Made by a program: the position numbers and the translations under genes. A stretch of DNA of 64,000 bases. Origin: Gammaproteobacteria bacterium (GTDB lineage: Bacteria > Pseudomonadota > Gammaproteobacteria > Steroidobacterales > Woeseiaceae). Below the pieces are notes generated by a model. That model was not told the DNA's origin. It was given only the letters and a program-made list of their open reading frames with translations, and did no database searches. The DNA is taken from assembly GCA_013151645.1 (NCBI GenBank), contig JAADHU010000051.1:1-64000 (forward strand). The letters run 5' to 3'. Positions 2,384-30,400 of this stretch are shown here, piece by piece; position 1 is the stretch's first letter, and every line of letters begins with the position of its first letter.

Positions 2384-2463
2384 TACCAACACTCGGAAGG
2401 CGCGCCGATGTCGTCCGATTGCCGTAACGGTCTGACTCACAAAGCCATTTCGGTGCGCATGCA

Positions 2464-2495: not shown

Positions 2496-2500
2496 CTATT

Positions 2501-2950: not shown

Positions 2951-2970
2951 CCTTTTATTTGTATTTTGTC

Positions 2971-2982: not shown

Positions 2983-3007
2983 TAGACAAAAATTATTGGA
3001 GATTGAC

Positions 3008-6000
3008 ATGAGTAAGCCCGACACCCGCACAAAGTTTTTCGAGGTCGTAACGAACTGGCCGAAAACCATTCTCGTACTGAGTGTGCTGATCATCATTAGC
3101 CTCGGGTCTTTCGTGCCTCGCTTACACAAAGACACAAGCTCCGACGCATTCATTGCTCCCGATGACCCGGTGGTTCTTTACCGCGATCATGTGCGCGAAA
3201 TATTCGGCCTGGAAGATCCCATCGTCATTGCCGTCATCAACGACGGACCTGAAGGCATTTTCAACCCGGACACGCTCGCGCTGGTCGATACGCTGACGCA
3301 GTCGATAGCAGGACTTGCGAACGTCGACCCCGACCGGGTCACCAGTCTTGCGACCGAATCGAATATTGTTGGCACCGACGAAGGCATGGAAGTCAGCGAC
3401 TTTTTCGATCCCTACCCGGCGACACAGGCACGCGCAGACGAAGTCCGCGCCGCCGTGGCTGATTTTCCGCTATATCAGGGAGCGCTCGTCGCCCGCGATG
3501 GCAGTGCCACGCTCGTCGTGGCGGAGCTTCTGAATCAGGACGCAGCGCAAGACACGTATGAGGAGATTCTTGCGGTGGTGGCGGCAACTCCGACGACGGC
3601 GGGCAACGAAATACACGTTGCGGGCGAAGGCGCCATTTCCGGTTACCTGGCCACTTACATTGACCGCGACGCTACGCGCCTGAATCCGCTCGCAGCGGTG
3701 GTCATTACGTTCGTTCTGATCATTGCCTTTCGAACCTTTGCCGGCGCGATGCTGCCCAACATCATCGTGTTGGGAACGCTGGCGGCAACGTTTGGCTCAA
3801 TGGCTGCGTTCGGCGTTTCGTTTTACGTTATCACCAATGGACTGGCGACAATCCTGATCGGTATCGCTGTCGCGGATTCCATCCATATTATGAGCCAGGT
3901 ATACGAGGAACAAGCCCGCGATCCGGTGCTCGTTTCGTCCCGCCAGGGACGACGTGAGATCGCCATTCGAGCGATGGCAAGAATGTGGAAACCCATCACG
4001 CTAACCACCATTACGACAATCGCGGGGTTCGTCGGTTTATGGCTGGGCGCGGCCATGCCGCCGATGAAATTCTTTGGTTTGTTCGCGGCCGTCGGCGTCG
4101 CGGCGGCCTGGGTTTACTCAATTTTCTTCCTGCCCGCCGCACTGACACTTTTCCCCATCAAGGCCAGTCGACTGTTTCGCGGCGCGAACATTAACGACCG
4201 CTATGGTGCGGCACTTCGCCGATTGGGCGAAATCGCGCTCAGGAAACCAGGCGTGACGCTGGCCATTGCCGCATTCATCGCGCTGGCAGGCGTCGCCGGT
4301 ACAAGTCGAGTCATCGTGCAGGAAGCGCAAATCGAAAACTTCCAGACCGACGAACCCATTTACATCGCCGACAAAGAAATCAATCGTCGTATGGATGGCA
4401 CCAAGTTTCTCGACATCGTCGTCGAAACCGACGAGATAGAGGCTCTGTTCCGGCCCGACCATCTGCGCCGCATCGAGGCGTTGCAGGCGTACGTCGAGCA
4501 ATTCCCCGCGGTACGTGGTTCAACGTCAGTCGTCGACTACATCAAGCAGATGCACAAGGCCGTGAACGAGAACCAGGACGAGTTTTACTCCATCCCGGAG
4601 GATGAGTTTCTGGTCGCACAACTATTCCTGCTGTACTCCGCTTCCGGCAATCCCGATGACTTCGAGGAAGAAATCGATACGGATTATTCACAAGCGAACG
4701 TACGTTTCAACCTGAATGTCGCGGACTACCGGCTATTGACTGAAATCATTCCAGCGATACAGAACTATGTCGATACGGAGTTCAATACCGACGAGATTCG
4801 GGCGAACCTCTCCGGGCGCGTCGCCGTCAATTATGCGTGGCTTAAAACCATCGGCGACAACCACATCAGGAGCCTGCTTTTGGCGCTGGTATTTGTCTGG
4901 CTTGCCGCCGCGGCCATCTTCCGCTCGATTCTTGCCGGTACGCTCTCGCTGATCCCCGTCGGAATGGCCCTCCTGCTGGTCTACGCGGTAATGGGCTTTG
5001 GTGGTATATGGCTTGGTGTCGGTACCTCGATGTTCGCGGCCATCGCGATTGGCTTGGGCATCGATTTCTCGATTCACACGCTGGATCGCATGAAAGAACT
5101 GCTTGCGACCAGAACGGGTAGTTTTGACGAACGCGTTGCGGACCTGTTCCCCTCGACAGGGCGCGCGTTATTCTTCAATTTCGCCGCCCTGGCGCTGGGA
5201 TTCCTGGTGCTCACCAGCAGCGAAGTACCGCCATTGATTCGCTTCGGCATGCTTGTAGCGGTTGCGGTCTCGACAAGCTTCGCCGCAAGTATGACGATTT
5301 TGCCGGCCATCGGAAAAATACTAAGGCCGGCTTTTCTCTTCCCTCGTGACACCGTCTCCGCATCGACGCCATCTACGGTCGCCTCGGCCGGTTCCGTTGC
5401 GGCATTGCTGGTGATCATTTCCATGCTGTTCATGAGTTTTGCCAAAGCCGACATAGCCGACCTGCTGTCCGGAGACGAAGTGATTGACCGAGTCAATGCA
5501 CGCGACGATGGCGAGCAGGTTTCGCGGGCATTGAAGATGGAACTGGTTGATCGGCGGGGAAAATCGCGAATTCGTGAAACGGTTGGCTACCGCCGTTACT
5601 ACGGCGCGGAGAAGCGCACTGTGCTGTTCTACGTATCGCCGACGAACGTCAAAGGAACCGCGTTCCTGACCTACGATTATCCGGATGCACAAACGGATGA
5701 CGATCAGTGGCTCTATCTGCCTGCGTTGCGAAAAGTCCGTCGCATCTCCGCAGCAGATCGTGGTGACTATTTTCTCGGCACTGATTTAAGTTATGAAGAC
5801 ATCAAGAAGGAAAGTCGCATTTCCAGGGAAGACTATGTTTTTTCAACCATTAACACGGAAGAAATTGACGGTCATCTTACCTACGTCGTTGAGGGCATCC
5901 CGGTCGACGATGCAACGGCCGAGGAACTCGGCTACAGCCGCGTGCTGTGGCGGATCGATCCGAACATGTGGATGAGTCGGCTGACGGAGATGTGGGATAT

Positions 6001-9764: not shown

Positions 9765-10445
9765 ATGACCAATAAGAGAACAAGACTCATCGCCAAAAGT
9801 GCTGCTGCGCCCGTGGCACTGATATTTACGCTCGCGGTGATCGCGGGTACGGCTTCTGCCGGCACGATCGCCGGATCGGCGCACGATTTTTCGAGCATCA
9901 ACAACGACGGTCAAATCTGTGTCAACTGTCACACGCCGCACAGTGCCGATACCACGGTAGCGACTGCACCGCTCTGGAATCACGACGTAACATCGACCAC
10001 ATTTCTTCTCTACTCGAGTCCGACCATGAACTCGGCACCCGGCCAGCCGACAGGCAGTTCCGTTCTGTGTCTTTCATGTCATGACGGCACAGTCGCAGTG
10101 GACAGTTTTGGGGGCAATGCCGGCGTCGACTTTATTGCGCCGGGTGACGAGCACTATATCGGTACTGATTTGAGTGATGATCACCCGATTTCGATAACCT
10201 ACGATTCTGCTCTCGCCAATGCGGACCCTGGTCTCAACGATCCTTCAGCGACTACCGTAACCATCGGTCTTGGCGGTGACAAGACCAATACAGGCACGGT
10301 CAGCAACCTGTTGCTGCCTGCCGATCAGGTGCAGTGCTCATCGTGTCACGATGTTCACAATGGTTTCGTACCACCCGCCGAGCCGGACTTGCTTGTCGTC
10401 TCGCGAACCAATAGCAGCATTTGCTTTACGTGTCATAACAAGTAG
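9765..10445 (+). CDS. OmcE-like secreted tetraheme cytochrome c
   Basis: The 226-residue precursor has a signal peptide (hydrophobic 13-28, cleavage after ASA at 32) and four CXXCH motifs: CVNCH at 52, CLSCH at 102, CSSCH at 191 and CFTCH at 220, the last almost at the C-terminus. Six further histidines (40, 59, 73, 130, 140, 198) suffice for bis-histidine ligation of all hemes. Size, heme number, GSAHD near the mature N-terminus, CHTPH, APLWN and CLSCHDGT resemble, from memory, the OmcE family of filament-forming cytochromes in Geobacter. It is first in a long operon and followed by a stable hairpin. Likely role: extracellular electron carrier, possibly polymeric; the polymer claim is inference. 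Confidence 0.85.
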   Translation: MTNKRTRLIAKSAAAPVALIFTLAVIAGTASAGTIAGSAHDFSSINNDGQICVNCHTPHSADTTVATAPLWNHDVTSTTFLLYSSPTMNSAPGQPTGSSVLCLSCHDGTVAVDSFGGNAGVDFIAPGDEHYIGTDLSDDHPISITYDSALANADPGLNDPSATTVTIGLGGDKTNTGTVSNLLLPADQVQCSSCHDVHNGFVPPAEPDLLVVSRTNSSICFTCHNK

Positions 10446-10459
10446 AGATTGACTGCCAA

Positions 10460-10493
10460 TATCGCCGCCGCGAAAACCAGGCCGGCGGCGATA
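10460..10493 (+). terminator. Strong hairpin after the first cytochrome gene
   Basis: A perfect 11-base stem, TATCGCCGCCG (10460-10470) with CGGCGGCGATA (10483-10493), encloses a 12-base loop. No T run follows, so it is more likely an mRNA-stabilising or partial termination element than a complete terminator. It sits 15 bases after the tetraheme cytochrome gene and 42 bases before the next gene. Confidence 0.6.
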
Positions 10494-10534
10494 CCCGCGG
10501 CCCCGACAGCGAAAGGTCTGGTGCGAGGTTACGG

Positions 10535-11614
10535 ATGAAAAAATTCACCGAACATTTCCTGTTGGGCGTGGCGGCTATTGGCATGGCGCTCCTGACCGCG
10601 TGTGCCGGTACGTCGCAGATTTCCGCATCGGACGGGTCGCTATTTTACCCCTCGCCACCGGCGCCCGCACGACTGCAATACCTGACCAAGTTTTCCTCAC
10701 AGCTCGATCTCGGCGAGAAAAATGCCAGGTTTCGGGATTTTGTATTCGGTGAGGAGACCATTAGTGGCCATCTCGTGCAGAAACCCTACGGTCTGGCTGT
10801 GTTTGAAGGAGCAGCCTACGTCGTGGATACACGCGGCGGTGGCTATGTCGTATTCGATTTCCTCAACTCAAGATCGAAACTGGTTCGCGGCAATGGCGCC
10901 AGCAATATGCCAAAACCAATCAACATTACGATTGACACGGATGGCACGCGTTACGTCACTGACACCCAACGAGAGCAGGTCCTTGTTTTCGACCGTAACG
11001 ATCGATTCGTCAAGGCGTTCGGTTCGTCGGGCCAGTTTCGGCCTGTCGATGTCGCTATCGTTGACGACCGATTGTACATTTCCGACATATTGCATCATAC
11101 GATCCAGGTCCTTGATCAACGAACCGGTCAATTGCTGTTCAAGTTTGGTTCGAACGGATCCGGCCCCGGCGAATTATTTCAACCCACCAATCTCGCCATC
11201 GGGCCAGATGGGTCGGTCTACGTTACGGACACCGGCAATTTCCGGATTCAGGTATTTTCTCCGGACGGGGAATTTATTCGCAGCATCGGCAAGATCGGCA
11301 CGGCGGCCGGCCGATTCGCCCGCCCCAAGGGCATCGCGGTAGACAGAGAAGGTCGGGTATACGTCGTTGACGCGGCCTTTGCTAACGTCCAGATTCTCGA
11401 CGCCACCGGCACGCCGCTGATGTTTTTCGGCGAACCAGGCACTAGTCCCGGCAACATCAATCTGCCCACGGTCGTCAAGATCGATTATGAGAACGTCGAA
11501 TTCTTTCAGCAGTATGCAGACCCGGAGTTTCGCCTGGAGTATCTGGTGCTGGTGGCCAGCCAGTTCGGAGTGAACAAAGTTGCTGTTTTCGGGTATGGCA
11601 CGATGCGCGAATAA
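10535..11614 (+). CDS. NHL-repeat beta-propeller lipoprotein
   Basis: The protein has 359 residues with a lipoprotein signal and lipobox LTAC (cysteine at residue 23), so it is probably anchored in the outer membrane. Repeats of the type GPDGSVYVTDTGNFRIQVF and DREGRVYVVDAAFANVQIL identify an NHL six-bladed beta-propeller. After the lipobox comes a conserved PPAPARLQYL block that recurs in the second lipoprotein of this operon at 13685. Start ATG has GAGG 8 bases upstream. It overlaps the beta-barrel gene by 20 bases. NHL propellers are protein-binding platforms; here it may organise cytochromes at the outer membrane, which is inference. Confidence 0.85.
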   Translation: MKKFTEHFLLGVAAIGMALLTACAGTSQISASDGSLFYPSPPAPARLQYLTKFSSQLDLGEKNARFRDFVFGEETISGHLVQKPYGLAVFEGAAYVVDTRGGGYVVFDFLNSRSKLVRGNGASNMPKPINITIDTDGTRYVTDTQREQVLVFDRNDRFVKAFGSSGQFRPVDVAIVDDRLYISDILHHTIQVLDQRTGQLLFKFGSNGSGPGELFQPTNLAIGPDGSVYVTDTGNFRIQVFSPDGEFIRSIGKIGTAAGRFARPKGIAVDREGRVYVVDAAFANVQILDATGTPLMFFGEPGTSPGNINLPTVVKIDYENVEFFQQYADPEFRLEYLVLVASQFGVNKVAVFGYGTMRE

Positions 11615-13685
11615 GGCTGGTGCATTGAATAGCCGTTTTACATCAGACTCATGCGCTTCTTGCTTCTCCCGTTGCCGCTGTCACCCAGGATCGCGATTTT
11701 CGCAGGTCGTGCTGACGAGCATGCTCCTGGTGATGCCCGGATTCGCCAGTGCCGATGTACGCGACGCCGAAATCGGTGGCTTTCGAGTGACGGACATTAG
11801 CGGGACGACGTCCGCACGATATTTACTGGATGATCGCGAGTATGCAAGTCAGAACGCACGCAGTAACGCAGAGAAGCAGAGGAATCTTGAGCTGGAATTG
11901 TTCATCTTGACTCGCAGCTATCTCTACCACCCGGACTTTCTGAACATGAAGATCGGTGGCGGGCCGTTACTGGTCACGCAAGATTACATCGCAACAGCCG
12001 GAACGAATGACAGCAACGAGGCTTTGTTCAATTTCGTGGTGGACCTCAACTTCCTGGATCAGAAAGCGTATCCGGTCCGCACGTATTACACGCGAAGCCA
12101 CCCGTCGATCACGACCAGCCTCGCGGGACGATTCCTGGTCAAACGGAATCAATACGGGCTGAATGCACAGTTACGCCAGCCCGTATCGCCCGTCCAGTTC
12201 ACCTTCGACGCGTTCCACGTCGACACGACCGGTTCCGGTTTCGATACCAGGCTGGACGAAAATATTGACGAATTGTCGCTCACCGCGTTCAAATCGTACC
12301 GCAACGCAGATCGGCTCAGCGTAACGTATCGATGGAATAATCGCGATTCTCTAAGCGGGAGCCCCGGACTTCCGATCCAGGCATCAAGAATAACCACCGG
12401 TACCGCGGATCTCGACGCACGCAATGTGTTCGGATCGAACGGTCAGCTGGAATTGGTTCAGCAGGTCTTCCTGGTTGACCAGGACACAGAGATCGATGTG
12501 CTGACCAAGCTCAAGGATCGCCGCTATTTCGGAAACCTCAACTGGGCACACACCAAAAGCACGCGCTCGTTTTACCGCTACACAGACCAGCAAACGACCC
12601 GGCCGGGCCAGACGAATGTCAGCCGTCGTTCGCTGGTCGTTGGAGGAAGTCACGAACGCGGGCAGAATCTCGTCGTCACCGCGAATGCAACCGTTACTGA
12701 GGACCGCGATTCCGCGTTCGAAAGAAGATTGGCGGGTGTACAGAGCAATATCAAATACACCTACCCCACTGCCTTTGGCTCGATCAGTTTGGGCATGGGC
12801 CTCGGTGCTCGCAATACTGACCAGGTTTCCGCGCAGGATCGCGCTCAGGTATTCGATGAATCCGCCGTGCTGGCCGGAACCGATCGTATTGATCTTCGCA
12901 ATGATTTCGTTGTAGCGGAAACACTGGTCGTTCGCAGTGAACCTAAGACCCAGGTATTCGTCGAGGGTATCGACTACCGACTGGTTACCGTCGGCAGTTC
13001 GACTTCGATTCAGCGCCTGGTTGGCGGGAACATCGCTGATGGTCAGACCGTACTGCTGGAGTATGCGTACCTGACAGGCGGCACCGTAAAGTTCGATACG
13101 CTCAGTCAAAACTATGTCGCTAACATCCGCTTTCTCAACCATTTCAGCGCTTTCGCCCGTCTGAGTGACCGGAGCAATCGTGTTGTCGCCGGTGCCTCGG
13201 TAATACCACTGAATGACGTTCGAAGTGTTGAGTTCGGGGGACGTATTGACTACCCGCTTGGAAACCGGTGGACCGTCGGCGGCGAGTATTTACGTACCGA
13301 TCAGAATGAGGATATTTCTTCCTACCTTCGTAACAGCTACGACGCCTACGCCGAAGTAAGACTGCCCATGGCGAGTTCGCTACGTTTGATGATGCACCAG
13401 GAAACGATTGAGAACGAAGGATCGGTGGAGAATGTTGACCTTGTCCAGTATCGCGCCAGTCTCCGCAGCCGACCATTCCGTGGCATTATCGTTTCCTGGG
13501 ACAGCGACTACCTTGAAGATATCGGCGGCACTCTGTTCCGTGAACGCGTATCGCACAGCATGACAGCGCAATGGGTATATCGCCAAATGCGTATCATGGT
13601 GCGTGGCGAGTTCGTTTCGGAGACGCTCGGCTCCACCCTGCGTGACAATGCGCGGGTAACGGCACAGATACAGAGGGCATTCTGA
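11595..13685 (+). CDS. Large outer-membrane beta-barrel, putative electron-conduit porin
   Basis: About 696 residues with a signal peptide whose hydrophobic core is VVLTSMLLVMPGFASA. The rest is dense in alternating hydrophobic/aromatic strands and ends in QIQRAF, a typical barrel-terminal phenylalanine. No heme motif, TonB box or plug domain is present. It lies between two NHL lipoproteins and next to multiheme cytochromes, as conduit porins do in porin-cytochrome systems of the MtrB, OmbB or ExtD kind, but I see no direct sequence relation to a named one. The ATG at 11595 overlaps the upstream gene; 11580 is an alternative. Its stop overlaps the next start as TGATG. Confidence 0.7.
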   Translation: MARCANKAGALNSRFTSDSCASCFSRCRCHPGSRFSQVVLTSMLLVMPGFASADVRDAEIGGFRVTDISGTTSARYLLDDREYASQNARSNAEKQRNLELELFILTRSYLYHPDFLNMKIGGGPLLVTQDYIATAGTNDSNEALFNFVVDLNFLDQKAYPVRTYYTRSHPSITTSLAGRFLVKRNQYGLNAQLRQPVSPVQFTFDAFHVDTTGSGFDTRLDENIDELSLTAFKSYRNADRLSVTYRWNNRDSLSGSPGLPIQASRITTGTADLDARNVFGSNGQLELVQQVFLVDQDTEIDVLTKLKDRRYFGNLNWAHTKSTRSFYRYTDQQTTRPGQTNVSRRSLVVGGSHERGQNLVVTANATVTEDRDSAFERRLAGVQSNIKYTYPTAFGSISLGMGLGARNTDQVSAQDRAQVFDESAVLAGTDRIDLRNDFVVAETLVVRSEPKTQVFVEGIDYRLVTVGSSTSIQRLVGGNIADGQTVLLEYAYLTGGTVKFDTLSQNYVANIRFLNHFSAFARLSDRSNRVVAGASVIPLNDVRSVEFGGRIDYPLGNRWTVGGEYLRTDQNEDISSYLRNSYDAYAEVRLPMASSLRLMMHQETIENEGSVENVDLVQYRASLRSRPFRGIIVSWDSDYLEDIGGTLFRERVSHSMTAQWVYRQMRIMVRGEFVSETLGSTLRDNARVTAQIQRAF

Positions 13686-14728
13686 TGCTCAGGCTCCACC
13701 GGTATTTTCGTTTTTCCTTCCTGGCGTCGTCACTGGCGCTCATTGCGAGTTGTGCCGGCCCGGCCGTCCTCGACCCTTTTCAAGGCAGTGGTCCCGTTTG
13801 GCCAGCGCCGCCCGCGGCGGCGCGACTCCAGTTTGTCGGCGAATTCTCGCGACCGGAGGAACTGGGAATTCGGCGTTCGCTCTGGTCGCGACTGGTGCGT
13901 ATAACGACCGGCCCGGAACAAGATGCGCTCGTGCGGCCCATGTCGGTTGCCGTCGCCGAACGCGCCAACATTATTTACGTCGCCGATCCCGGGGCAGGTT
14001 GCGTGCATCGGTATGACCTGAAATCCGGCCGCTACCGACAGCTTCGGCTGGCACGGGATGTACCGCTGTTGTCGCCGGTCGGGTTGGCGGTTACAGCGGA
14101 CGGTCGAGTATTCGTGACGGACTCTCAACTCGCCCGAATCTTCGTTGCCGATGCCGACGACAAGGTCCTTACGGCGCTCTCCCTGGACGCCCCATTGTTA
14201 CAACCAACCGGGTTATCGTGGGACGCGAGCACCGACGAACTGGTTGTGGTCGATACTACCGCCCAGATCATTCGACGCTACACATCCTCGGGGGCACTTG
14301 TCAGCGAATTTGGCCAGCGCGGGCAACAGGCCGGCTCCCTGAATTACCCGACCTTCCTGTGGCAGGACAGCGATCGATCGCTTCTGGTCAGCGATACGCT
14401 GAATTTCAGAATTCAGCGTTTTTCGAACGACGGAATCTCGCTCGGCTATTTCGGTAAGGCCGGCGATGCTACCGGCGCGCTGTCCCGTCCCAAAGGCGTC
14501 GCGGCTGACAGCTTCGGTCACATTTACGTGATTGATTCGCTGTTTCATGCCGTGCAGGTGTATGACCGCCAGGGACGATTCCTGCTGGCCGTCGGCGAGC
14601 AGGGCCAGGGTCCCGGACAATTCTGGTTGCCGACTGGCGTCTTTGTCGACGCGAACGATTCAATTTTCGTTGCGGATACGCACAACCGTCGCGTCCAGGT
14701 ATTTCGATACGTTGGAGTAGCACCATGA
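13685..14728 (+). CDS. Second NHL-repeat beta-propeller lipoprotein
   Basis: The 347-residue product has a lipoprotein signal with lipobox IASC (cysteine at about 23) and a run of NHL repeats such as DRSLLVSDTLNFRIQRF and DANDSIFVADTHNRRVQVF. After the lipobox, WPAPPAAARLQFVGEFS closely parallels PPAPARLQYLTKFS in the lipoprotein at 10535, so these two are paralogs placed on each side of the beta-barrel gene. Start and stop overlap both neighbours (TGATG before, ATGA after), which implies tight co-translation. Probable outer-membrane scaffold or periplasmic/extracellular partner for cytochromes. Confidence 0.85.
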   Translation: MLRLHRYFRFSFLASSLALIASCAGPAVLDPFQGSGPVWPAPPAAARLQFVGEFSRPEELGIRRSLWSRLVRITTGPEQDALVRPMSVAVAERANIIYVADPGAGCVHRYDLKSGRYRQLRLARDVPLLSPVGLAVTADGRVFVTDSQLARIFVADADDKVLTALSLDAPLLQPTGLSWDASTDELVVVDTTAQIIRRYTSSGALVSEFGQRGQQAGSLNYPTFLWQDSDRSLLVSDTLNFRIQRFSNDGISLGYFGKAGDATGALSRPKGVAADSFGHIYVIDSLFHAVQVYDRQGRFLLAVGEQGQGPGQFWLPTGVFVDANDSIFVADTHNRRVQVFRYVGVAP

Positions 14729-16416
14729 AGCTGTTATTCCGGACATGCCTGGCACTTCTGATCTGCACCGTCGCAGGACCCGGCGAGGCAGACACCATTG
14801 TCGGCTCCAGACACAATTTATCGGCCAGCGGGCCGGGACCGGTAACGTCCGGTTCAGAAACACAGATTTGCATATTTTGTCACACACCTCATCAATCGTC
14901 GCCGGTCGCACCGTTGTGGAATCGTCGTTCGCCGGGGCTCAACTACGTCCCTTACTCCAGCAGCACAGCGATTGCCACACCCGGGCAGCCCACGGGTGAC
15001 TCGTTGCTCTGCCTTAGCTGTCATGATGGCACCATAGCGCTCGGCGAAGTGCTCAGTCGCGGCAGCGATATCGTCATGAACGGTGGCACCATAACCATGC
15101 CCGTCGGCTCATCCCTGATCGGTACCAACCTGATGCAGGATCACCCGATTTCGTTCGCGTATTCAGGCACATTGGCCAGCCAGAACGGTGAACTCAGGGA
15201 CCCAGGTACGCTGCGGCCCGAATTCAGACTGGACGCGAGCGGCCAGCTTCAGTGTACGACCTGCCACGATGCGCATGACAACCAGTTCGGCAACTTTCTC
15301 GTGTGGCCCAATTCGCGCTCTCAGCTCTGCGTCGAATGTCATCAAAAGACCGGCTGGTCGCTTTCGCCGCACAACCTGTCTGCGTCAGCGTGGAACGGAG
15401 TATTTCCGGATCCCTGGCCGGCAAGCGACGCAGCAACCGTGATAGACAATGCGTGTGGCAATTGCCACCTGCCGCATAATGCGATTGGCGGGCCGAGGTT
15501 GCTCCAGTATTCGCTCGAGGAAGACAACTGCAATGCCTGCCACAACGGCAACGTCGCAGCCGAAAACGTCATGGCTGATTTCAACAAACTCTCGGTGCAT
15601 CCTGTCGCCGACACTTCTCTTGTGCACGATCCAACCGAGCCAGGCACCGTGGTCAACCGACACGTTGAGTGTGCGGATTGCCATGATCCACACGCCGCGC
15701 GTGCAGGAACTCCACCGATAAACGGCGTGTTGACGAATGTTCGCGGTATCGATCTATCCGGCGGCGAAGTCGACCCTGCCGGTAGTTCCTACGAGATCTG
15801 CTTTCGGTGCCACGCTGACAATCTGAATCCCGGGCAAAACCTGACGCCTCGACAACACGACCAACAGAACACACGACTGGAGTTTCAGCTCACCAACCCG
15901 TCCTTTCATCCGGTCGCCGGGGTCGGCCGCAACGCGGATGTTCCCAGCCTCATCGACCCGATGTCCGTCACGTCAATCATCGAATGCACGGATTGCCATG
16001 ATTCCGATAGTTCCGAATCGGCCGGAGGAGCCGGCCCAAGTGGCCCGCACGGGTCTATATTCGCGCCCCTTTTAGTGCGCCGCTACGACACTCTGGACAA
16101 TACGCCGGAAAGCAGTTCGGCATATGCACTGTGCTATACCTGTCACAGCCGCAACAGCCTGCTGAATGATGCCAGCTTCGCTGAACACGACAGGCACATC
16201 CGCAGGGAAAATGCGCCGTGCAATGCTTGCCACGATCCCCACGGAATCAGTTCGACACAGGGAAACAGTGTCAATAACACGCACTTGATTAATTTCGACA
16301 CAACAATCGTCAGCCCGAACGGGAACGGGCAGTTGCGATTTGTCGACGAAGGAAGATTTTCCGGGTCCTGTGACCTGCTTTGCCACGGTGAAGACCATGT
16401 CAACGAAAATTATTGA
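14725..16416 (+). CDS. Twelve-heme cytochrome c with an OmcE-like N-terminal module
   Basis: This 563-residue secreted cytochrome (signal cleavage near GEA at 20-22) has eleven CXXCH motifs and a terminal CX3CH variant, CDLLCH at 549-554. Residues 24-210, with four hemes, align throughout with the tetraheme cytochrome at 9765: QIC..CHTPH, APLWN, PGQPTG, LCLSCHDGT, IGT.L..DHPIS and the third and fourth heme motifs occur in the same order. Residues 211-563 add eight hemes of the doubled-CXXCH kind. It probably works outside the cell or in the conduit; a role as anchor between membrane conduit and tetraheme chain is attractive but inferred. ATGA overlap with the upstream lipoprotein gene. Confidence 0.87.
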   Translation: MKLLFRTCLALLICTVAGPGEADTIVGSRHNLSASGPGPVTSGSETQICIFCHTPHQSSPVAPLWNRRSPGLNYVPYSSSTAIATPGQPTGDSLLCLSCHDGTIALGEVLSRGSDIVMNGGTITMPVGSSLIGTNLMQDHPISFAYSGTLASQNGELRDPGTLRPEFRLDASGQLQCTTCHDAHDNQFGNFLVWPNSRSQLCVECHQKTGWSLSPHNLSASAWNGVFPDPWPASDAATVIDNACGNCHLPHNAIGGPRLLQYSLEEDNCNACHNGNVAAENVMADFNKLSVHPVADTSLVHDPTEPGTVVNRHVECADCHDPHAARAGTPPINGVLTNVRGIDLSGGEVDPAGSSYEICFRCHADNLNPGQNLTPRQHDQQNTRLEFQLTNPSFHPVAGVGRNADVPSLIDPMSVTSIIECTDCHDSDSSESAGGAGPSGPHGSIFAPLLVRRYDTLDNTPESSSAYALCYTCHSRNSLLNDASFAEHDRHIRRENAPCNACHDPHGISSTQGNSVNNTHLINFDTTIVSPNGNGQLRFVDEGRFSGSCDLLCHGEDHVNENY

Positions 16417-16428
16417 TTCCGTGATTTC

Positions 16429-17334
16429 ATGATTTCTTCTACCAAAAGTCCGACTGTTCCCGCCGGAAGCCGACGGCATCTTCCAGCGCAACAATCGTTC
16501 GTACTTTTGGCCGTTCTGCTTTTCGCCTATGTGCCTGGCCATGCAGCAGAGGTCTCTCCTCACTGGAACAAATCGAGCTGCGATACCTGCCACGACAGTC
16601 CAGCGCCAACCGACAGGTCCGATATCAGGCTTCACGACAACGACACAATGTGTACGAACTGTCATGATGAGACGTCCGCTGCGGTTTGTCCGCATCCGAC
16701 CGATATACCGGTAAGAAATTCCGGGCCGCTGCAACTGGCGGACGTATACGGTACGGCACTGGTCGATGAACGCATTGTCTGCACAACCTGCCACGCGGTC
16801 GTACTGCAGTGTACCGGGGGACGACAGGAGCACTACCAAAACCCCTCCTTTCTGCGAAACGGTCCGTTTCGACCGGGTCAGGCCTGTTTCGAATGTCACG
16901 ACGCAGCGGAATACGAGAAGCTGAATCCACACCAGTTCGATCAGGCCGGCGAATCGTCGGCCTGCCTGTTCTGCCACGAAGACCGGCCGGATGCCGACGC
17001 CGTCACCCGCATCCAGTTCCGGCTGAGTGGCGCCGCACAATGCCTCGGTTGTCACCCGGTTGTACCACACCCGCTATCGGTGCTCGGTTCAACCGTGACA
17101 GATAAGTGGACACACCTCGTCGTTCCGCCCGCCGACATGTTGGTTCGCATGAAAGCGGCTGAGGATCGGACTGGCGTCGCACTGCCACTTGATTCTGAAG
17201 ACGGCTCGGTCAATTGCACTACCTGCCACAACGTACACGATCCGGAGTTACCCGACTATTCGCTACAGTCCGAACGAGGTACGAGTAACAAGTTGCGCAT
17301 GCGCAATATTTGCGAGGCATGCCATGACAAGTAA
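16429..17334 (+). CDS. Octaheme cytochrome c
   Basis: The precursor has 301 residues, a signal peptide ending near PGHAA (about 40), and eight CXXCH motifs: CDTCH, CTNCH, CTTCH, CFECH, CLFCH, CLGCH, CTTCH and CEACH, the last three residues from the C-terminus. There is no catalytic-site signature of nitrite, hydroxylamine or tetrathionate reductases (for example CXXCK), so electron transfer rather than catalysis is likely. It follows the 12-heme gene after 12 bases and overlaps the next gene by 11. Probably periplasmic or part of the outer-membrane conduit. No named family recognised. Confidence 0.82.
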   Translation: MISSTKSPTVPAGSRRHLPAQQSFVLLAVLLFAYVPGHAAEVSPHWNKSSCDTCHDSPAPTDRSDIRLHDNDTMCTNCHDETSAAVCPHPTDIPVRNSGPLQLADVYGTALVDERIVCTTCHAVVLQCTGGRQEHYQNPSFLRNGPFRPGQACFECHDAAEYEKLNPHQFDQAGESSACLFCHEDRPDADAVTRIQFRLSGAAQCLGCHPVVPHPLSVLGSTVTDKWTHLVVPPADMLVRMKAAEDRTGVALPLDSEDGSVNCTTCHNVHDPELPDYSLQSERGTSNKLRMRNICEACHDK

Positions 17335-18271
17335 CCGTCGAAGAACGAACAAGACCGACGGCGTCGTGATTCTTTTCGTGACGATTGTGTTCGCGAATTG
17401 CGTCTGGGCCGCCGACGTTGCGACCGTACCGTTTCGAATCGTTCAGGAAATGGGCCTGGAAGCGCAAGACCCATTGTCGTTGCCTACGGACGTTGCCGTG
17501 GCCGATAACGGCAATCTGTACGTCGTCGATAGCGGTAACCATCGTGTCGTGATATTCGATTCTTCCGGGCGTCGAATCGGCCAGCTTGGCCAACAGGGAT
17601 CGGACGATGGACAGCTTCAGGACCCGGTCGGCATAGACATCGCAGCGAACGGTGGAATCTACGTCGCTGACCGCGGCAATAGCCGAATCGCGAAGTTTTT
17701 TTCCGATGGTTCCCCGCCGATATCGATACCGCTGCAGGAAAACGGGAAAGACGTTGTGCCGATTGATGTTGCGGTATCGCCGTTGGCCGACGAATTATTT
17801 GTTACAAGCAATAACAGCCATCGTGTGCTGGTGTTCTCCAGCACCGGCGAACTTCTCAGAAGTTGGGGAGGAGAAGGTGCCGATCCCGGACAATTCCGTT
17901 ATCCCGCGACCCTGACGTTGGCCGGGGATGCTGTATTCGTCGTCGACGTGCTGAATGCGCGCGTTCAACGTTTTGACGTTGCCGGTGGCTCGAACAAGGA
18001 ATTCGGCAAGCTCGGCGCAGGCCCGGGCACGTTTTTTCGCCCAAAGGGTATTGCTGTCGATGCATCGGGTCGGGTTTACGTCACTGATAGTTACCTGGGG
18101 GTTATCCAGGTCTTTTCTTCCGACGGAGAGTTTCTGCATGCTGTCGGTGACGACGGTGTGCCGACCCGCTTTGATAACCCGGTCGGCCTGACGACCCTTG
18201 GCGAGCAGATAGTTCTGGTGCAGATGCTCCCACATACAATCTTGATAATTGAGCCGGAGCCTGGAACATGA
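17324..18271 (+). CDS. Secreted NHL-repeat beta-propeller protein
   Basis: With the ATG at 17324 the product is 315 residues with a signal peptide (VVILFVTIVFANCVWAA). Unlike the other two propellers of this operon it appears not to be a lipoprotein; a cysteine lies in the signal core (FANC) but without a good lipobox. NHL repeats are clear, for example DNGNLYVVDSGNHRVVIF and DASGRVYVTDSYLGVIQVF. The start is chosen because it begins the signal peptide and overlaps the upstream cytochrome by 11 bases; the open frame upstream is the cytochrome's shadow. It overlaps the next gene as ATGA. Likely a cytochrome partner or scaffold. Confidence 0.82.
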   Translation: MTSNRRRTNKTDGVVILFVTIVFANCVWAADVATVPFRIVQEMGLEAQDPLSLPTDVAVADNGNLYVVDSGNHRVVIFDSSGRRIGQLGQQGSDDGQLQDPVGIDIAANGGIYVADRGNSRIAKFFSDGSPPISIPLQENGKDVVPIDVAVSPLADELFVTSNNSHRVLVFSSTGELLRSWGGEGADPGQFRYPATLTLAGDAVFVVDVLNARVQRFDVAGGSNKEFGKLGAGPGTFFRPKGIAVDASGRVYVTDSYLGVIQVFSSDGEFLHAVGDDGVPTRFDNPVGLTTLGEQIVLVQMLPHTILIIEPEPGT

Positions 18272-19257
18272 AGTACAGGTTGCTCGGTGCAATGCTTGCC
18301 GTCGCGGCCGGCCTGACTCCGTTTCGGGCTGACGAGGTCGCTGCGGAGGAAGTAGCGGAGCTTTTCAAATGTCCGGTCTGTCATACGGACCGGTTACGGG
18401 AGAACAAGCGGCGGCGTGCCATAACCCTGGTACCGCACGATCCCAGGCCGGTTTTGGATACCGGGAAACAAATGGAAAGCAGCACGCCGGCGATGTGCTT
18501 CTCTTGTCATGACGGATTTGTTGAAGACTCCCGGTCGCTCTGGAAACGTGGCCACAAAGGACATCGGGTCGGTATGCTGCCATCGGCGTCGATCAACCAG
18601 CCACGAAATGACGATGAACCGGTATTTCCCATGAACGATGACGGCCGGATGTATTGTGGCAGCTGCCACTCAGCACACCAGATCGAAGATGCACAGTACG
18701 CAGGACCTCCGTTCATGCGGGTGGACCCGCTCGATGGCAACCTTTGCCAGGCTTGCCACGATGATAAGAGGTCGATCGCCGGCAGTGACCATGTACGTAG
18801 CAATAGCCGACGCCGAAAAGCGCCGGCTGATTTCGAATCGCGGGGTGCCTGCAGTCGCTGCCATATCGCTCACGATGCCAAGGGTCCCGTGTTGTGGGCG
18901 CGCGAACCGGGTGCAGGTAACACGCCCGTCAACACGCTTTGTACGAGTTGCCACGAAGACGAAGTGCATCCTTCCGAGCATCCGGCGGAGGTCGTGGCCT
19001 GGGCACAAGCATTACGCGAGCCGTTTCGAACGCCAACCGGCGTACCGATGCCGGTGTTCGACTCCGGTGGACTGCAATCCGACAACGGCTCCATCGGCTG
19101 TCCTACCTGTCACAATGCGCACCGACAGCGTGCTGCCGATCTGCCGCCTTACCGAGTCGGAAAGTTTCTTCGGTTGTCAAAGACCCGGGACTTTCTGTGC
19201 GCGGACTGCCATGACGGATCGTCCCTGCGTCGCTACCTTTATTTTCATTCTGAGTGA
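18268..19257 (+). CDS. Octaheme cytochrome c (doubled-CXXCH type)
   Basis: The protein has 329 residues, a signal peptide of about 20-25 residues, and eight CXXCH motifs: CPVCH, CFSCH, CGSCH, CQACH, CSRCH, CTSCH, CPTCH and CADCH. Several are followed by H within three residues (CGSCHSAH, CSRCHIAH, CPTCHNAH), the spacing of doubled-CXXCH domains. No reductase-type CXXCK is present. It starts inside the stop of the propeller gene (ATGA) and closes the tightly packed part of the operon. Probably a soluble periplasmic or surface electron carrier. Confidence 0.83.
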   Translation: MKYRLLGAMLAVAAGLTPFRADEVAAEEVAELFKCPVCHTDRLRENKRRRAITLVPHDPRPVLDTGKQMESSTPAMCFSCHDGFVEDSRSLWKRGHKGHRVGMLPSASINQPRNDDEPVFPMNDDGRMYCGSCHSAHQIEDAQYAGPPFMRVDPLDGNLCQACHDDKRSIAGSDHVRSNSRRRKAPADFESRGACSRCHIAHDAKGPVLWAREPGAGNTPVNTLCTSCHEDEVHPSEHPAEVVAWAQALREPFRTPTGVPMPVFDSGGLQSDNGSIGCPTCHNAHRQRAADLPPYRVGKFLRLSKTRDFLCADCHDGSSLRRYLYFHSE

Positions 19258-19400
19258 GCACGAAAACTACGCATTAGACGGGCCTGACTTCGTACATCTA
19301 CTTATGGTTCCGCACAGGCACTAACGCTACTTTGGAGATAGCAAATACTGACAAAAATTCTCACCAATACTCTCAAAGGTTTCCAGGGAGGCACTCGAAG

Positions 19401-20030
19401 ATGCTTATTTTCAGCGGGAAAATTCGGTCGCAACTAACGGTACTGGTTTGCGCAATTTGGTTTCTTGTTCCGTTGGTAAATGCGGATGTGCTCGATGATG
19501 TCAAAGAATGCGATAGCTGCCACGGTGTCGACGGCGTCAGTACCGAAAGCGACATCCCGACAATTGCCGGTGCGTCCGCGTTTGTACTTGAAGAATACAT
19601 GTACCAGTTTCGTGAAGATGCCCGACCCTGCCGCGAATCCAAATTTCGTTCCGGGGATACGGACCGTCCGGCTACCGATATGTGTACGATCGCCAAGAAT
19701 CTCGATGAAGACGAATTTGCCGGGCTGGCAGAACACTACAGTGGCAAGACGTTCATGGCCGCCAAGCAGGATTTCGACGTCGCCAAGGCTGAAGCTGGAA
19801 GGTCTATCCACAAGAAAAATTGCGAAAAATGCCATTCAGATGGCGGTAGTTACGCGGATGACGATGCGGGGCTTCTCGCCGGCCAATGGATGCCCTACCT
19901 GAAGGAAACGTTTGAGGACTATGTTGCCGGTGACCGGGACATGATGGAAGACAAAATGAAACAGAAGATCGAGGCGCTGGACGCGGAGTCTTTCGATGCA
20001 CTGCTTCACTTCTATGCAAGCCTGCAGTAG
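19401..20030 (+). CDS. Diheme cytochrome c, c4/c553-like
   Basis: The 209-residue product has a signal peptide (LTVLVCAIWFLVPLVNA), then two class I cytochrome halves: CDSCHGVDG near residue 39 and CEKCHSDGG in the second half. Two additional cysteines (PCRES and DMC) lie in the first half, perhaps a disulfide. The start at 19401 has the strong Shine-Dalgarno AGGGAGG at 19385-19391. A 143-base gap separates it from the octaheme gene, so it may have its own promoter. As a soluble periplasmic diheme carrier directly before a NapC-type gene, it likely accepts electrons from that quinol dehydrogenase. Confidence 0.82.
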   Translation: MLIFSGKIRSQLTVLVCAIWFLVPLVNADVLDDVKECDSCHGVDGVSTESDIPTIAGASAFVLEEYMYQFREDARPCRESKFRSGDTDRPATDMCTIAKNLDEDEFAGLAEHYSGKTFMAAKQDFDVAKAEAGRSIHKKNCEKCHSDGGSYADDDAGLLAGQWMPYLKETFEDYVAGDRDMMEDKMKQKIEALDAESFDALLHFYASLQ

Positions 20031-20101
20031 TCGCAGCACACGTCAACATTCAAGCCGAACAATCCGTCCGATACCGACAATGAAACTGAGCGGAGCATGT
20101 T

Positions 20102-20719
20102 ATGACTGAGGCTAACGACGATAAAACACGGTCAGAAAGCAAGTGGGGAAAGCTTTGGCGCAAACCGGACCGATGGTTTTATTTCGGCGTGCCACTCGGT
20201 GGCTATCTATTATTCGTTGTTGGCGTGCTGTTCTGGGGCGGATTCAATACCGTGCTCGAGGCTTCGAGCACGGAAACGTTTTGCATTTCATGCCATGAAA
20301 TGAAAGACAACGTCTACGAGGAATATCAGCAGACGATCCACTACTCGAATCGCACCGGTGTCCGAGCCACATGCCCTGATTGTCATGTGCCAAAGCAATG
20401 GGTTCCCAAGATGATCCGGAAAATGCAGGCGACCGTCCACGAAATTCCACACTGGATCCTCGGTACGATCGATACACCTGAAAAATTCGATAAACGGCGC
20501 CTGTATCTTGCCAAACGCGTCTGGAGCAGTATGGAGCGTACAGACTCGCGCGAGTGCCGCAATTGCCATGAATTGCAGCACATGGACCTCAGTGCCCAGG
20601 CCCGTACCGCGAGCCGCAAGCACACGCTAAAAAGGCAAATCGAACGGGGAGAAACCTGCATAGATTGTCATCAGGGTATCGCTCACACTTTGCCGGAGGG
20701 CTGGGAAGACGAATTCTGA
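20102..20719 (+). CDS. NapC/NirT-family tetraheme quinol dehydrogenase
   Basis: The 205-residue protein has one N-terminal transmembrane helix (about 27-50, FGVPLGGYLLFVVGVLFWGG) and four CXXCH motifs: CISCHEM, CPDCH, CRNCH and CIDCHQG, in the NapC/NirT/CymA pattern. This family oxidises menaquinol or ubiquinol at the inner membrane and passes electrons to periplasmic acceptors. It is last in the cytochrome region, 71 bases after the diheme gene, and no nitrate or nitrite reductase lies nearby. By analogy with CymA it is the probable entry point of electrons into this pathway. Confidence 0.9.
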   Translation: MTEANDDKTRSESKWGKLWRKPDRWFYFGVPLGGYLLFVVGVLFWGGFNTVLEASSTETFCISCHEMKDNVYEEYQQTIHYSNRTGVRATCPDCHVPKQWVPKMIRKMQATVHEIPHWILGTIDTPEKFDKRRLYLAKRVWSSMERTDSRECRNCHELQHMDLSAQARTASRKHTLKRQIERGETCIDCHQGIAHTLPEGWEDEF

Positions 20720-27431: not shown

Positions 27432-30400
27432 TTATGCCTGGAATTTCGACGGGCCCTGACTCTGCATATGTTCGTACGTTTGCCACCGCCGTTCGACCAG
27501 TTCCTGGGCACTTTGCATTAGCGTATCGGCCTCCTCGGGATTCGTACGCTGCAAAATCTTGTAACGCATCTCGTTGTACGCATAGTCCTTCAGCGGAATG
27601 CTGGGACGCGGGGAATCGAGGACAAATGGCTTCTTGCCGGCCGCACGCAAGCTCGGATTGTAACGGATGAGTGGCCAGTAGCCGCTTGCCGTTGCCAGTT
27701 TCTGCTGCTTCATGCCGTCCGCCATATCGTAGCCGTGAGCGATGCAATGGCTGTAGGCGAGAATCAGCGACGGTCCCTGGTATTCCTCCGCCTCGCGCAT
27801 TGCCAGTAAAGTCTGCTGCGGGTTGGCGCCCATGGCAACCTGGGCGACGTAAACGCTGCCGTACGATACAGCCTGCAAAACCAGATCCTTTTTACCGATA
27901 CGCTTGCCGGCGGTGGCGAATCGGGCGGATGCGCCCAGCGGTGTCGCCTTGGACATCTGCCCGCCTGTATTCGAATACACCTCGGTATCGAGCACCAGAA
28001 CATTCACATTACGACCACTGGCCAGTACGTGATCGAGGCCGCCGGAGCCAATATCGTAAGCCCAGCCATCGCCACCAATAAGCCAGACGCTGCGACGAAC
28101 CAGGTGGTCGACGATGGACAGCAGCGCAGCGGCTTTTTCGTTGTTGCCATTGTGCAGCATCGCAGTCAACGTCTGCTTCAGACCCGCGACCCTGTGTCGC
28201 TGCGCCCGGACCTCGCTGCCCACTCTTTGACGCGCGTTGATCAGCTCATCGGCGAGTTCCTCACCGATTTGCGGTGCAAGTTTCGTGACAAGCTCTTGCG
28301 CAATCGCCATGTGGTGATCGGCCGCAATTCGCATGCCCAGACCGAACTCCGCGTTATCTTCGAACAATGAATTGGACCACGCCGGTCCACTTCCTTCCGC
28401 ATTCTTGCTCCACGGCGTAGTTGGCAAGTTGCCTCCGTAGATCGACGAACACCCCGTGGCATTCGCCACTAACAGACGTGGACCGAACAATTGCGACAGC
28501 AGGCGGATATAGGGTGTCTCGCCACAACCGGAACAAGCACCGGAAAACTCGAACAACGGTTCCAGGAATTGAGTGCCTCGAACCGAAGAAAAATCGACTT
28601 TCGCTCGATCATTGAACGGCAGGCTGGCGAAAAACTCGATGTTCTTTCGCTCCTGCTCGAGCAACGGCGCTTTGTCGGTCATGTTGATAGCACGGAATTC
28701 CGGGTCGTCCGGACTCTTGACCGGGCAGGCATCGACGCACAAGTTGCAACCCGTGCAATCCTCAACGTATATCTGCAACGTATAACGAGTCTCGGGAAAC
28801 CCCCGTGCACTGACCGGCGTTGACGGAAAACCCTCCGGCGAGCCCGCGATGGCACTGTCGTGGTAGAACTTCGCGCGGATAACGCTGTGCGGACACACAA
28901 AACTGCAATTCCCACACTGGATGCACAAGTCCGGCTCCCAGGCCGGGACTCGATCCGACACGTTGCTTTTCTCCCAGCGGGTTGTACCGCTGGGATAGGT
29001 GCCATCGACCGGCAGCATACTGACCGGCAGATCGTCACCATGGCCGCGCATCATCTGTGCAGTAACCTCGCGGACGAATCGGGGGGCTTCGTCGGGCACC
29101 AATTCATCCAGCGAGCGGTCACTGTTGGCGACCGCGGGAATCTCAACTTCGCACAAATGATCCAGCGCCGAGTCCACCGCCGCGAAATTCTGCTCAACGA
29201 CCGCCTGCCCTTTTACACGGTAGGTTTTTTCGATGGCCTGCTTGATTTGCCGGATTGCAGCGTCCCGCGGCAAGACGCCCGATAATGCGAAGAAACAGAC
29301 TTGCATAACGGTGTTGATGCGCTTGCCCATACCCGCATCGCGCGCAACCCGGGTTGCATCTATGACATACAAGCGTATCTGTGAATCCAGAATCGACTGC
29401 TGCACCGGTTGCGGCAATCTGTCCCAGACCTCATCCGCGGGATACGGACTGTTCAGCAGGAACACAGCGCCCTGGGCCGCGTGTTGCAACACCTCAATTT
29501 TCTCAATCAGATCAAATTTGTGGCAGGCAATGAAGTTCGCCGACTGGATCAGGTAAGGCGCCTGGATCGGTTGCGGTCCGAACCGCAGATGGGAGACGGT
29601 CCGCGAACCCGATTTCTTGGAGTCGTAGACGAAGTAACCCTGGCAATAGAGATCGGTATTTTCGCCAATAATTTTTATACTGTTCTTGTTCGCACCTACC
29701 GTGCCGTCGGAGCCCATACCGTAGAACAATGCGCGCGTAGTATCGTCGCGCTCTACGTTGAAGGCAGGGTCGAAGTCCAGGCTCGTAAAAGTCACATCAT
29801 CGTTAATGCCGATCGTAAAATGATTCTTCGGTGTTGACCTGGCCGATTCTTCAAAAACCGCCTTCACCATGGCCGGCGTGAACTCTTTGGATGACAATCC
29901 GTAGCGACCGCCGATGACCTTCGGCATCGACGGTAATTTCCCGTCACTCACTGCTTCAGCCAATACAGTCACGATATCCTGATAGAGCGGTTCGCCGCTT
30001 GCACCAATTTCCTTGGTTCGATCAAGCACCGCAATCGAGCGGACCGAATCCGGAATGGCCTGAAGAAGATGCTCCGCGGAGAAAGGACGGTACAAACGAA
30101 CATTGATCAGACCGAGCCCTTTTTTCGGCATGGCGTCAATCGTATGCGCGACCGTTTCAGCGCCCGACCCCATCATGATAATGATGCGCGTAGCATCTGC
30201 ATCGCCGTGGTAATCAAACAGGCGGTACTGTCGACCGGTCATGGTCGCAAACCGGTCCATCGACTGCTGCACGATTTTCGGCGTTTCTGCATAGAACCGA
30301 TTGACTGTTTCCCGACCCTGAAAGTAGACGTCCGGATTCTGCGCCGTGCCGCGGATAAACGGATTGTCCGGATTCAGTGCGCGTTCTCGATGTTCGTAAA

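Follow-up and report, generated by a model that had tools for sequence, protein, structure and literature searches.

A probable extracellular electron-transfer island of the Uet kind, with a candidate base for an OmcE-type filament, in a gammaproteobacterial genome

The closest described system to the locus examined here is the undecaheme electron transfer cluster (Uet, uetABCDEFGHIJ), which was named in Tenderiales and is present in six Gallionella genomes (PMC10734462, PMC12575090). As described there, its parts include the undecaheme cytochrome UetJ, the extracellular tetraheme cytochrome UetA, the barrel UetC and the NHL proteins UetH/I (PMC10734462), and the order of the Tenderia locus tags places the triheme genes Tel_16515, 16520 and 16530 and the TPR gene Tel_16525 before the undecaheme gene Tel_16545 (PMC5371394); going by tag order, our guess for UetC is Tel_16510. 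Another conduit, OetABI, has been reported from the sulfate-reducing partners of ANME and from Geobacter, with OetB as an extracellular-facing lipoprotein (PMC10553843). As for the filaments, how nanowires are anchored in the membrane is "still speculative" according to a 2025 review, which names their physical anchoring and redox coupling as a task ahead (PMC12307469), and there is dispute over whether cytochrome filaments serve as conduits in the first place (PMC11077965).

In this study, we analysed a stretch of 64,000 nucleotides, referred to as the window, from a Woeseiaceae genome. Between positions 9765 and 20719 it carries ten co-directional open reading frames on the + strand, which we label A to J:

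A, 9765..10445, + strand: tetraheme OmcE-family cytochrome (4 CxxCH), candidate nanowire subunit
B, 10535..11614, + strand: NHL-propeller lipoprotein, first propeller (PF01436, 4.8e-18; lipobox LTAC)
C, 11595..13685, + strand: predicted large outer-membrane beta-barrel (model pLDDT 90.5)
D, 13685..14728, + strand: NHL-propeller lipoprotein, second propeller (PF01436, 3.7e-23; lipobox IASC)
E, 14725..16416, + strand: twelve-haem cytochrome (11 CxxCH and 1 CxxxCH) with an OmcE-type head, candidate filament base
F, 16429..17334, + strand: octaheme cytochrome (8), perhaps in the place of a pentaheme protein
G, 17324..18271, + strand: secreted NHL propeller, third propeller (PF01436, 6.7e-29)
H, 18268..19257, + strand: octaheme cytochrome (8 CxxCH)
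I, 19401..20030, + strand: diheme (2) periplasmic cytochrome c resembling PdsA
J, 20102..20719, + strand: NapC/NirT-family tetraheme (4) cytochrome, presumed quinol dehydrogenase (PF03264, 5.7e-71)

The initial annotation had counted 38 haem motifs in ten co-directional genes, one of them for a 12-heme cytochrome, together with three NHL propellers, and had described the genes from 10535 to 19257 as overlapping or at most 12 bases apart. All of this agrees with the open reading frames and with our recomputed gaps. There are 37 CxxCH motifs and one CxxxCH (the latter in E), against a mean of 0.19 and a maximum of 3 CxxCH when the ten proteins are shuffled with their composition preserved (n=2000). 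From B to H, neighbouring genes overlap by 1-20 bases, except for a gap of 12 bases between E and F; wider gaps separate A from B (89 bases), H from I (143) and I from J (71). Pfam assigns NHL repeats to B, D and G, the NapC/NirT family to J and c-type haem domains to A, E, F, H and I, and finds no family match for C. The ATG starts of C and G are 11595 and 17324, and some analyses used translations beginning one codon later, at 11598 and 17327. As a separate observation, the haem pattern was counted 298 times forward and 198 times reverse over the whole genome, compared with 135 and 128 in a backward control.

We read this island as encoding a complete route for extracellular electron transfer, of the kind represented by Uet and known here from genes, homology and predicted structures, and put the probability of this reading at roughly two in three. 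The basis in hand consists of gene order and its conservation, the OmcE homology of A and of the head of E, the invariant haem sites and ligand-type histidines of E, the predicted large barrel and the exchange of the quinol module. An electron-transfer island was also what the initial annotation had proposed, and this is still the best reading, with A an OmcE homologue, MtrB the top Foldseek match of C, and J a member of the NapC/NirT family. Membership of a named respiratory complex or a substrate-porin fold of C would have spoken against it; Pfam and NCBIfam link none of the ten proteins to a named complex for nitrite, sulfur or arsenic, and the predicted structure of C is not that of a small substrate porin. 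The further suggestion of an undescribed conduit type was too strong: the accessory set does differ from that of Uet, but the make-up of A to E is that of the published Uet core.

Conservation of this core was assessed in 85 loci including the window. These derive from 90 fetched loci (L016-L105), less four without an E of at least eight haems (L020, L024, L040, L105) and two duplicates (L029 = L017, L048 = L021). The core of A (four haems), B, C, D and E is present on one strand in 60 of the 71 distinct loci with room for it, spread over 13 named phyla; at the other 11 (L025, L032, L037, L039, L043, L044, L055, L072, L083, L086, L092), one or more core parts are missing on the strand of E. 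At 74 of 77 distinct loci, a D-type gene stands immediately upstream of E. Searching with nothing but the window proteins had earlier placed all four partners at 32 of the 47 loci that extend 6.5 kb to either side; the later, profile-based count is higher, though some of the same loci went into building its profiles. Cultured carriers of the gene set include Aromatoleum tolulyticum ATCC 51758, A. toluvorans Td21 and Desulforhopalus sp. IMCC35007. Pairwise identities of all four partners track those of E (r 0.63 for A, 0.69 for B, 0.73 for C and 0.55 for D; permuted maximum 0.21). The initial annotation had suggested looking for the same gene order in related genomes; what is conserved is the set A to E, and I and J lie outside this core. 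With the core as a signature, extracellular electron transfer can be looked for in phyla such as Planctomycetota, Bacteroidota, Verrucomicrobiota and Nitrospirota.

Two members of the core are related to OmcE. The profile of A (n=49) matches OmcE at 1.6e-45 across nearly the whole chain (7tfs) and at 5.5e-42 (9yuq), in keeping with the OmcE-like tetraheme cytochrome of the initial annotation. All 49 family members have four haem motifs, and further histidines are retained at positions 40 (48/49), 59 (47/49), 140 (49/49) and 198 (49/49). The head of E (residues 7-209) matches OmcE by profile at 5e-46, and its predicted structure superimposes on OmcE with a Z of 16.0 and an rmsd of 2.5 Å over 177 residues, the next match having a Z of 5.1. 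Throughout the E family the 12 haem motifs are invariant (58/58), including a twelfth site beyond the 11 of the "undecaheme", as are 15 further histidines (58/58), while a sixteenth, H56, is found in 56 of 58. An N-terminal histidine, possibly an inter-subunit ligand, is present in 48 of 49 A proteins and in all 58 E heads; which histidine of OmcE spans the subunit interface we assume by analogy with OmcS. In a quick tree, the 49 A proteins and 58 E heads are split by one branch (SH-aLRT 99), the pattern that a single ancient duplication with both copies retained would leave. The underlying alignments comprise, in addition to the window protein, 48 of 66 candidates for A, 57 of 74 for E and 58 of 69 for the barrel, and mean column identity is 44% in E compared with 24% in the barrel.

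Within E, unit 2 (207-345) aligns with the head at a probability of 97.4 and a score of 72.8 (maximum 36.5 in 30 column shuffles with haem columns kept), and residues 340-563 at a score of 47.0 (shuffle maximum 38.8). A reading of E as three equal OmcE repeats was rejected, as F (76.2) and H (93.8) match the head as well as E's own units do. Since F and H, and almost the pentaheme family discussed below (63.8, nearly as high as unit 2), score as high against the head, we claim OmcE identity for the E head alone.

The barrel is known from prediction. The model of C, with a mean pLDDT of 90.5, is the large beta-barrel named in the initial annotation, with some 30 strands (a manual count from the strand list) and an insert near residues 426-482. 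Foldseek ranks MtrB first (6r2q_B, E 3.4e-9, TMq 0.42), and in the VIA comparison C matches MtrB with a Z of 15.3, a value equalled by unrelated barrels. When the C profile (59 sequences) was compared with the sequences of the PDB, MtrB was not listed at any E value up to 10; homology to solved porins by sequence was rejected, with nothing convincing at E<=10 and the best listed match at 0.58. For the proteins encoded on either side, a rough lipobox rule fires in 42 of 77 B and 37 of 96 D profile matches, as well as in 32 of 90 for the pentaheme profile (h5), 3 of 100 for A and 3 of 95 for E. In the window, B and D can therefore be taken as clear lipoproteins, and for their families this holds only in part; the window's E carries no lipobox.

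With an OmcE protomer as its head, E is a candidate base for a filament of A. We tentatively propose, with the odds against it, that E is the missing nanowire base: a twelve-haem wire fixed in barrel C, whose outer end would be an integral OmcE protomer and the site of A polymerisation, and whose inner end would be fed by an exchangeable cytochrome, a pentaheme protein in most other phyla and octaheme F here. Already in our main reading, A would be secreted and then polymerise into an OmcE-type filament, for which E would form the junction: the N-terminal histidine of its head, H30, is one that in a filament would ligate the haem of a neighbour, so that an A subunit and then the filament could dock, and the C-terminal end would close on its own last histidine, H558. 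C would be the sheath for a cytochrome wire, taken to include E, and the lipoprotein propellers B and D may brace the barrel or aid the folding of its partners. If E is indeed such a base, A-B-C-D-E would be a standard nanowire-plus-socket machine in at least 13 phyla. Most work has treated cytochrome nanowires and outer-membrane conduits separately, and the pairing of A with its paralog E, together with a barrel and two lipoprotein propellers, opens the anchoring question to direct tests. In the literature searched, which did not extend to Eddie 2022, we found no published description of an OmcE-type head in the undecaheme cytochrome. New here are the spread of the core over phyla, the identification of A as an OmcE homologue, the twelfth haem site and OmcE head of E, and the exchange of accessory parts.

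These accessory parts are swapped between lineages, which carry either a pentaheme protein or F, and either NapC plus diheme or a cytochrome b561-like module. F adjoins E at 12 of 22 Pseudomonadota loci and at none of the 63 others, and at 42 of the 63 loci outside Pseudomonadota, B and C are separated by a pentaheme-type gene, which there adjoins the barrel gene. The label is a loose one, as the pentaheme profile gives 90 matches with other multihaem proteins included; of eight proteins examined at this position, seven contain 5 CxxCH and one contains 4, and the motif F-[DT]-G-V is common to all eight. F perhaps stands in for the pentaheme protein of other phyla. A homologous replacement was rejected: F scores 98.6 against the pentaheme family but 133.4 against H, and being closer to H, its replacement of the pentaheme protein rests on the presence pattern, not on homology. 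Regions related to H occur at other loci within proteins of 16-24 haems.

Within our main explanation, it is an even question whether F, or the pentaheme protein elsewhere, would sit in the barrel like MtrA, leaving E wholly outside like MtrC. The position of the pentaheme-type gene next to the barrel gene at those 42 loci favors this arrangement, while sequence conservation is much higher in E than in the barrel, and three OmcE rises of 34 Å each (PMC12954529) would give about 100 Å, enough to span the membrane, if the 12 haems of E stack alike. An alternative, which we consider unlikely, is that A and E are not filament and socket but surface or soluble cytochromes, terminal reductases or shuttles. 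OmcE homology demonstrates fold, not polymerisation, and E, without a lipobox, could be freely secreted; against this, A retains the four haem sites and four further histidines of the OmcE core, and the N-terminal histidine is kept almost throughout both A proteins and E heads.

The input from the inner membrane would be provided by I and J. J exceeds the gathering score of PF03264 (238.3 bits; 24.1 required) and falls below the NCBIfam cut-offs for napC_nirT (256.4; 310.6 required) and for NapC, and I matches NCBIfam PdsA at 2.2e-48 and 164.7 bits, below the cut-off of 330. As a query against its own genome at E 0.001, J finds itself alone. A role for J in nitrate, DMSO or TMAO respiration was rejected: PF00384 has just two matches in the genome, formate dehydrogenase alpha and NuoG, so that no periplasmic nitrate reductase was found. 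The search for NrfA in the genome gave just a weak match within an octaheme/TPR protein. A cd1-type haem protein, to which NCBIfam gave no nitrite-reductase name, is encoded elsewhere in the genome, and J and I might also serve it. It seems rather improbable to us, however, that I and J form a separate nitrite-respiration operon merely beside the conduit genes. Their gaps (H-I 143 bases, I-J 71 bases), their place outside the conserved core and the cd1-type protein, albeit unnamed, are consistent with such an operon. Yet at L026 I and J, divergent beside A, flank the same cluster in another orientation, and among 21 Pseudomonadota loci and the window, I-J occurs in 2, a cytochrome b561-like/7-haem/3-haem module in 10, and both together in none, where absence means absence from the stretch covered and L020, L024 and L045 are left out. 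It would appear from this that the module feeding in electrons at the inner membrane can be exchanged.

For the conduit reading, we infer the likeliest path to run outward, from quinol to J, I, F/H, the barrel with E and the A filament: J would oxidise quinol, diheme I would ferry electrons across the periplasm, and F and/or H would pass them to the outer membrane. Conduits can work in both directions, and NapC-type proteins usually oxidise quinol. That the same conduit runs inward, carrying electrons from Fe(II), a cathode or a partner cell towards nitrogen oxides or a terminal oxidase, the direction put forward for Uet in Tenderiales, is quite unlikely, given that the quinone module of the island is of this usually quinol-oxidising NapC type, that no RuBisCO large subunit, and hence no sign of Calvin-cycle autotrophy, was found in the 98% complete genome, and that there are hints of organotrophy in a nearby pyruvate:ferredoxin-type oxidoreductase and two beta-eliminating lyases, even though the genome has five COX1-family matches and the cd1-type protein, and published Uet is the cluster of a cathode-oxidising autotroph found also in iron oxidisers (PMC10734462, PMC12575090, PMC5371394).

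Set against known systems, the island shares with MtrCAB of Shewanella (6r2q) the concept of a barrel sheath with multihaem wires, and MtrB is the first Foldseek match of C; it differs in that the PDB matches of the barrel profile (E<=10) include no MtrB and that NCBIfam models of MtrA/MtrC type score far below cut-off. By description, OetABI likewise combines a barrel with multihaem cytochromes and has OmcS/OmcX-type filament candidates nearby, but its OetB is a lipoprotein, in contrast to E with no lipobox (PMC10553843). In periplasmic transfer, I resembles PdsA and J belongs to the NapC/NirT family, both below NCBIfam cut-offs. To the OmcE nanowire of Geobacter sulfurreducens (7tfs), A and the E head are homologous by sequence, the E head also by predicted fold, and E differs in having eight more haems behind the head. 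The likeness to Uet is one of gene make-up and haem count, as the 80 loci kept include no Tenderia: E has 11 CxxCH (plus one CxxxCH), A has 4 and corresponds by haem count, B, D and G are NHL proteins and C is predicted to be the barrel. Unlike Uet, the window lacks triheme genes (UetD, E, G), with no three-haem protein among the ten, and Pfam (E 0.01) finds neither a peptidylprolyl isomerase (UetB) nor a TPR protein among them; the window has two octahemes, a third propeller, a diheme cytochrome and a NapC-type protein.

In this analysis, we place the ten-gene island in the context of related loci and find that it is a widespread conduit, similar to the published undecaheme electron-transfer system (Uet), with a new accessory arrangement. 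The island itself was borne out, its ten genes being located as the initial annotation had described:

9765-20719, + strand: genes A to J, comprising a tetraheme cytochrome (A), NHL propellers (B, D, G), a barrel (C), a 12-haem "undecaheme" cytochrome (E), octahemes (F, H), a PdsA-like diheme (I) and a NapC/NirT-family tetraheme (J).

Together the ten proteins carry 37 CxxCH motifs and one CxxxCH motif; shuffled versions contained a mean of 0.19 and a maximum of 3 CxxCH (2000 shuffles). Genes B to H form a single run, overlapping or nearly so, with gaps of 143 bases before I and 71 before J. Pfam identified the NHL propellers of B, D and G and the NapC/NirT domain of J, and found no family for C.

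With the barrel as query (E 0.001), 3/60 relatives matched, one of them weakly and one being the genome of the window itself; of 369 genomes sampled across the class, ten matched, again with that genome counted. The C-terminal part of E matched at least 583 GTDB stretches, at least 487 of them encoding a relative. Our locus sample consists of the best 80 of these at least 487 E relatives, by match to the window's E, plus ten loci from the barrel searches, giving 85 distinct loci with E, the window among them; the distribution figures are thus those of a sample and no census. A D-type NHL gene lies directly upstream of E in 74 of the 77 loci with at least 1.5 kb there, and A-type tetraheme, B, C and D are all on E's strand in 60 of the 71 loci that extend 6.5 kb or more upstream of E, or 9 kb or more downstream. 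Among sampled loci, the full set was found in 13 named phyla: Pseudomonadota, Planctomycetota, Nitrospirota, Bacteroidota, Verrucomicrobiota, Thermodesulfobacteriota, Calditrichota, Chlorobiota, Ignavibacteriota, Lentisphaerota, Acidobacteriota (in a different order), Ca. Hydrogenedentota and Ca. Zixiibacteriota. Isolates carrying the core include Aromatoleum toluvorans Td21, A. tolulyticum and Desulforhopalus sp. IMCC35007. The loci come mostly from metagenome bins, so individual phylum labels may be wrong; on a quick tree, one labelled 'Nitrospinota' (L031) groups with Pseudomonadota. The labels clustered on that tree (24 changes versus 41.5 when shuffled), so the family has largely been retained within phyla, with exceptions. 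In a Woeseiaceae bin, the D-E pair is tandemly duplicated (L070:6950-12496; NHL, 11-haem, NHL, 11-haem), the second E copy being more diverged from the window's E.

Around this core, accessory parts are exchanged. Outside Pseudomonadota, a gene of the five-haem pentaheme type sits between B and C in 42/63 loci, B adjoins C in none of the 63, and 21/63 show neither order, whereas in Pseudomonadota B adjoins C in 19/22 loci and a pentaheme intervenes in 1/22. An F-type octaheme follows E in 12/22 Pseudomonadota loci versus 0/63 others. The quinol side also varies among the 21 Pseudomonadota loci plus window: ten have a cytochrome b561-like gene with 7-haem and 3-haem type multihaem partners, two (window and L026) have I with J, and ten have neither module within the available stretch; none has the b561-like module together with I-J. 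The b561-like assignment was checked with Pfam (PF01292) in L019 alone.

L019:13824-17087, and nine further Pseudomonadota loci: module of 7-haem, cytochrome b561-like and 3-haem genes next to the core; in L017 and L022 on the strand opposite to E.

Some related clusters encode large cytochromes, with 16-24 haem motifs, that contain an H-type region (L027:11931-14939, L030, L032, L061).

On sequence comparison, A is a homologue of OmcE, a cytochrome nanowire subunit. A profile of 49 A proteins matched OmcE (7tfs; 1.6e-45) and the deposited multihaem protein 9yuq (5.5e-42) over almost the full chain, and four non-motif histidines are kept (40 in 48/49, 59 in 47/49, 140 and 198 each in 49/49). 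E carries a related head. Across 58 E proteins (42-65% identity to the window's E), all twelve haem motifs, including CxxxCH, are invariant, as are fifteen other histidines; the sixteenth, H56, is present in 56/58. Residues 7-209 matched OmcE at 5e-46, and the predicted structure (mean pLDDT 84.4) superposed on OmcE over range 29-207 with Z 16.0 (2.5 Å, 177 residues), the next match reaching Z 5.1. In a quick tree of 58 E heads and 49 A proteins, one branch separates both kinds (SH-aLRT 99). Motif order suggested that the remainder of E comprises two further OmcE units, but this reading is not established, because F and H score against the head as well as the rest of E does. One new, testable idea is that this undecaheme cytochrome has twelve haems and incorporates a nanowire subunit. 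Glycine runs past the last conserved Tyr of E occur in L017, L018, L019, L021, L022 and L030, and are absent in the window.

C was modelled with confidence as a barrel (pLDDT 90.5), with about 30 strands by our count. Near residues 426-482 it has an insert that, in our own reading of the topology, would be periplasmic if the last strand ends there. Foldseek ranked MtrB, the porin of the Mtr complex, first (E 3.4e-9, TM 0.42 on the model), followed by many barrels, and in VIA MtrB (Z 15.3) was tied with others. Judged from its strand count, C is predicted to be roomy enough for a multihaem rod. Electrons would pass from quinol to J, I, F/H, C with E, and A; the propeller lipoproteins B and D would adjoin the barrel. 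In OmcE filaments, neighbouring subunits are joined by a His that one provides to a haem of the next (PMC9473688; PMC12307469). In E, conserved H558 lies near the last haem in sequence. The N-terminal His retained in the E head is a candidate inter-subunit ligand, if, by analogy with OmcS, it is this His that bridges subunits in OmcE. With this His kept and H558 by the last haem, E would have one open and one closed end, as a filament base would require, a reading drawn from conservation.

As to direction, we favour electron flow outward from quinol. In the genome of the window (98% complete), a search for the RuBisCO large subunit found nothing, the COX1 family gave five matches, and the two PF00384 enzymes are formate dehydrogenase and NuoG. 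The genome also encodes a cd1-type protein, and J as query found no second match to itself there. J may in addition serve nitrite reduction. Elsewhere in the window are two tandem beta-eliminating lyases (PF01212; 23268-26074) and, on the - strand (27432-32680), a pyruvate:ferredoxin-type oxidoreductase (1187 aa) adjoining a pyridine-nucleotide oxidoreductase with Fe-S domains, a pair that hints at anaerobic organotrophy. Contig C31 of G000 (2044-4401; L109:1545-3902) encodes, close to genes of the COX1 family, a 785 aa protein that matches a TPR model and carries 8 haem motifs.

The Uet cluster was named in cathode-oxidising Tenderiales, is also carried by six Gallionella genomes, and comprises undecaheme UetJ, tetraheme UetA, barrel UetC, triheme UetD/E/G, peptidylprolyl isomerase UetB and NHL UetH/I (PMC10734462; PMC12575090), with Tenderia locus tags given in a further source (PMC5371394). 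Against these descriptions, likened by gene make-up, the triheme, peptidylprolyl isomerase and TPR parts of Uet are missing from the window, and we therefore call its set Uet-like and not a Uet member; both have undecaheme, tetraheme, barrel and NHL components. Thus, of the new conduit type that had been proposed, it is the accessory arrangement that is new, while the conduit itself is shared with a widespread, Uet-like family.
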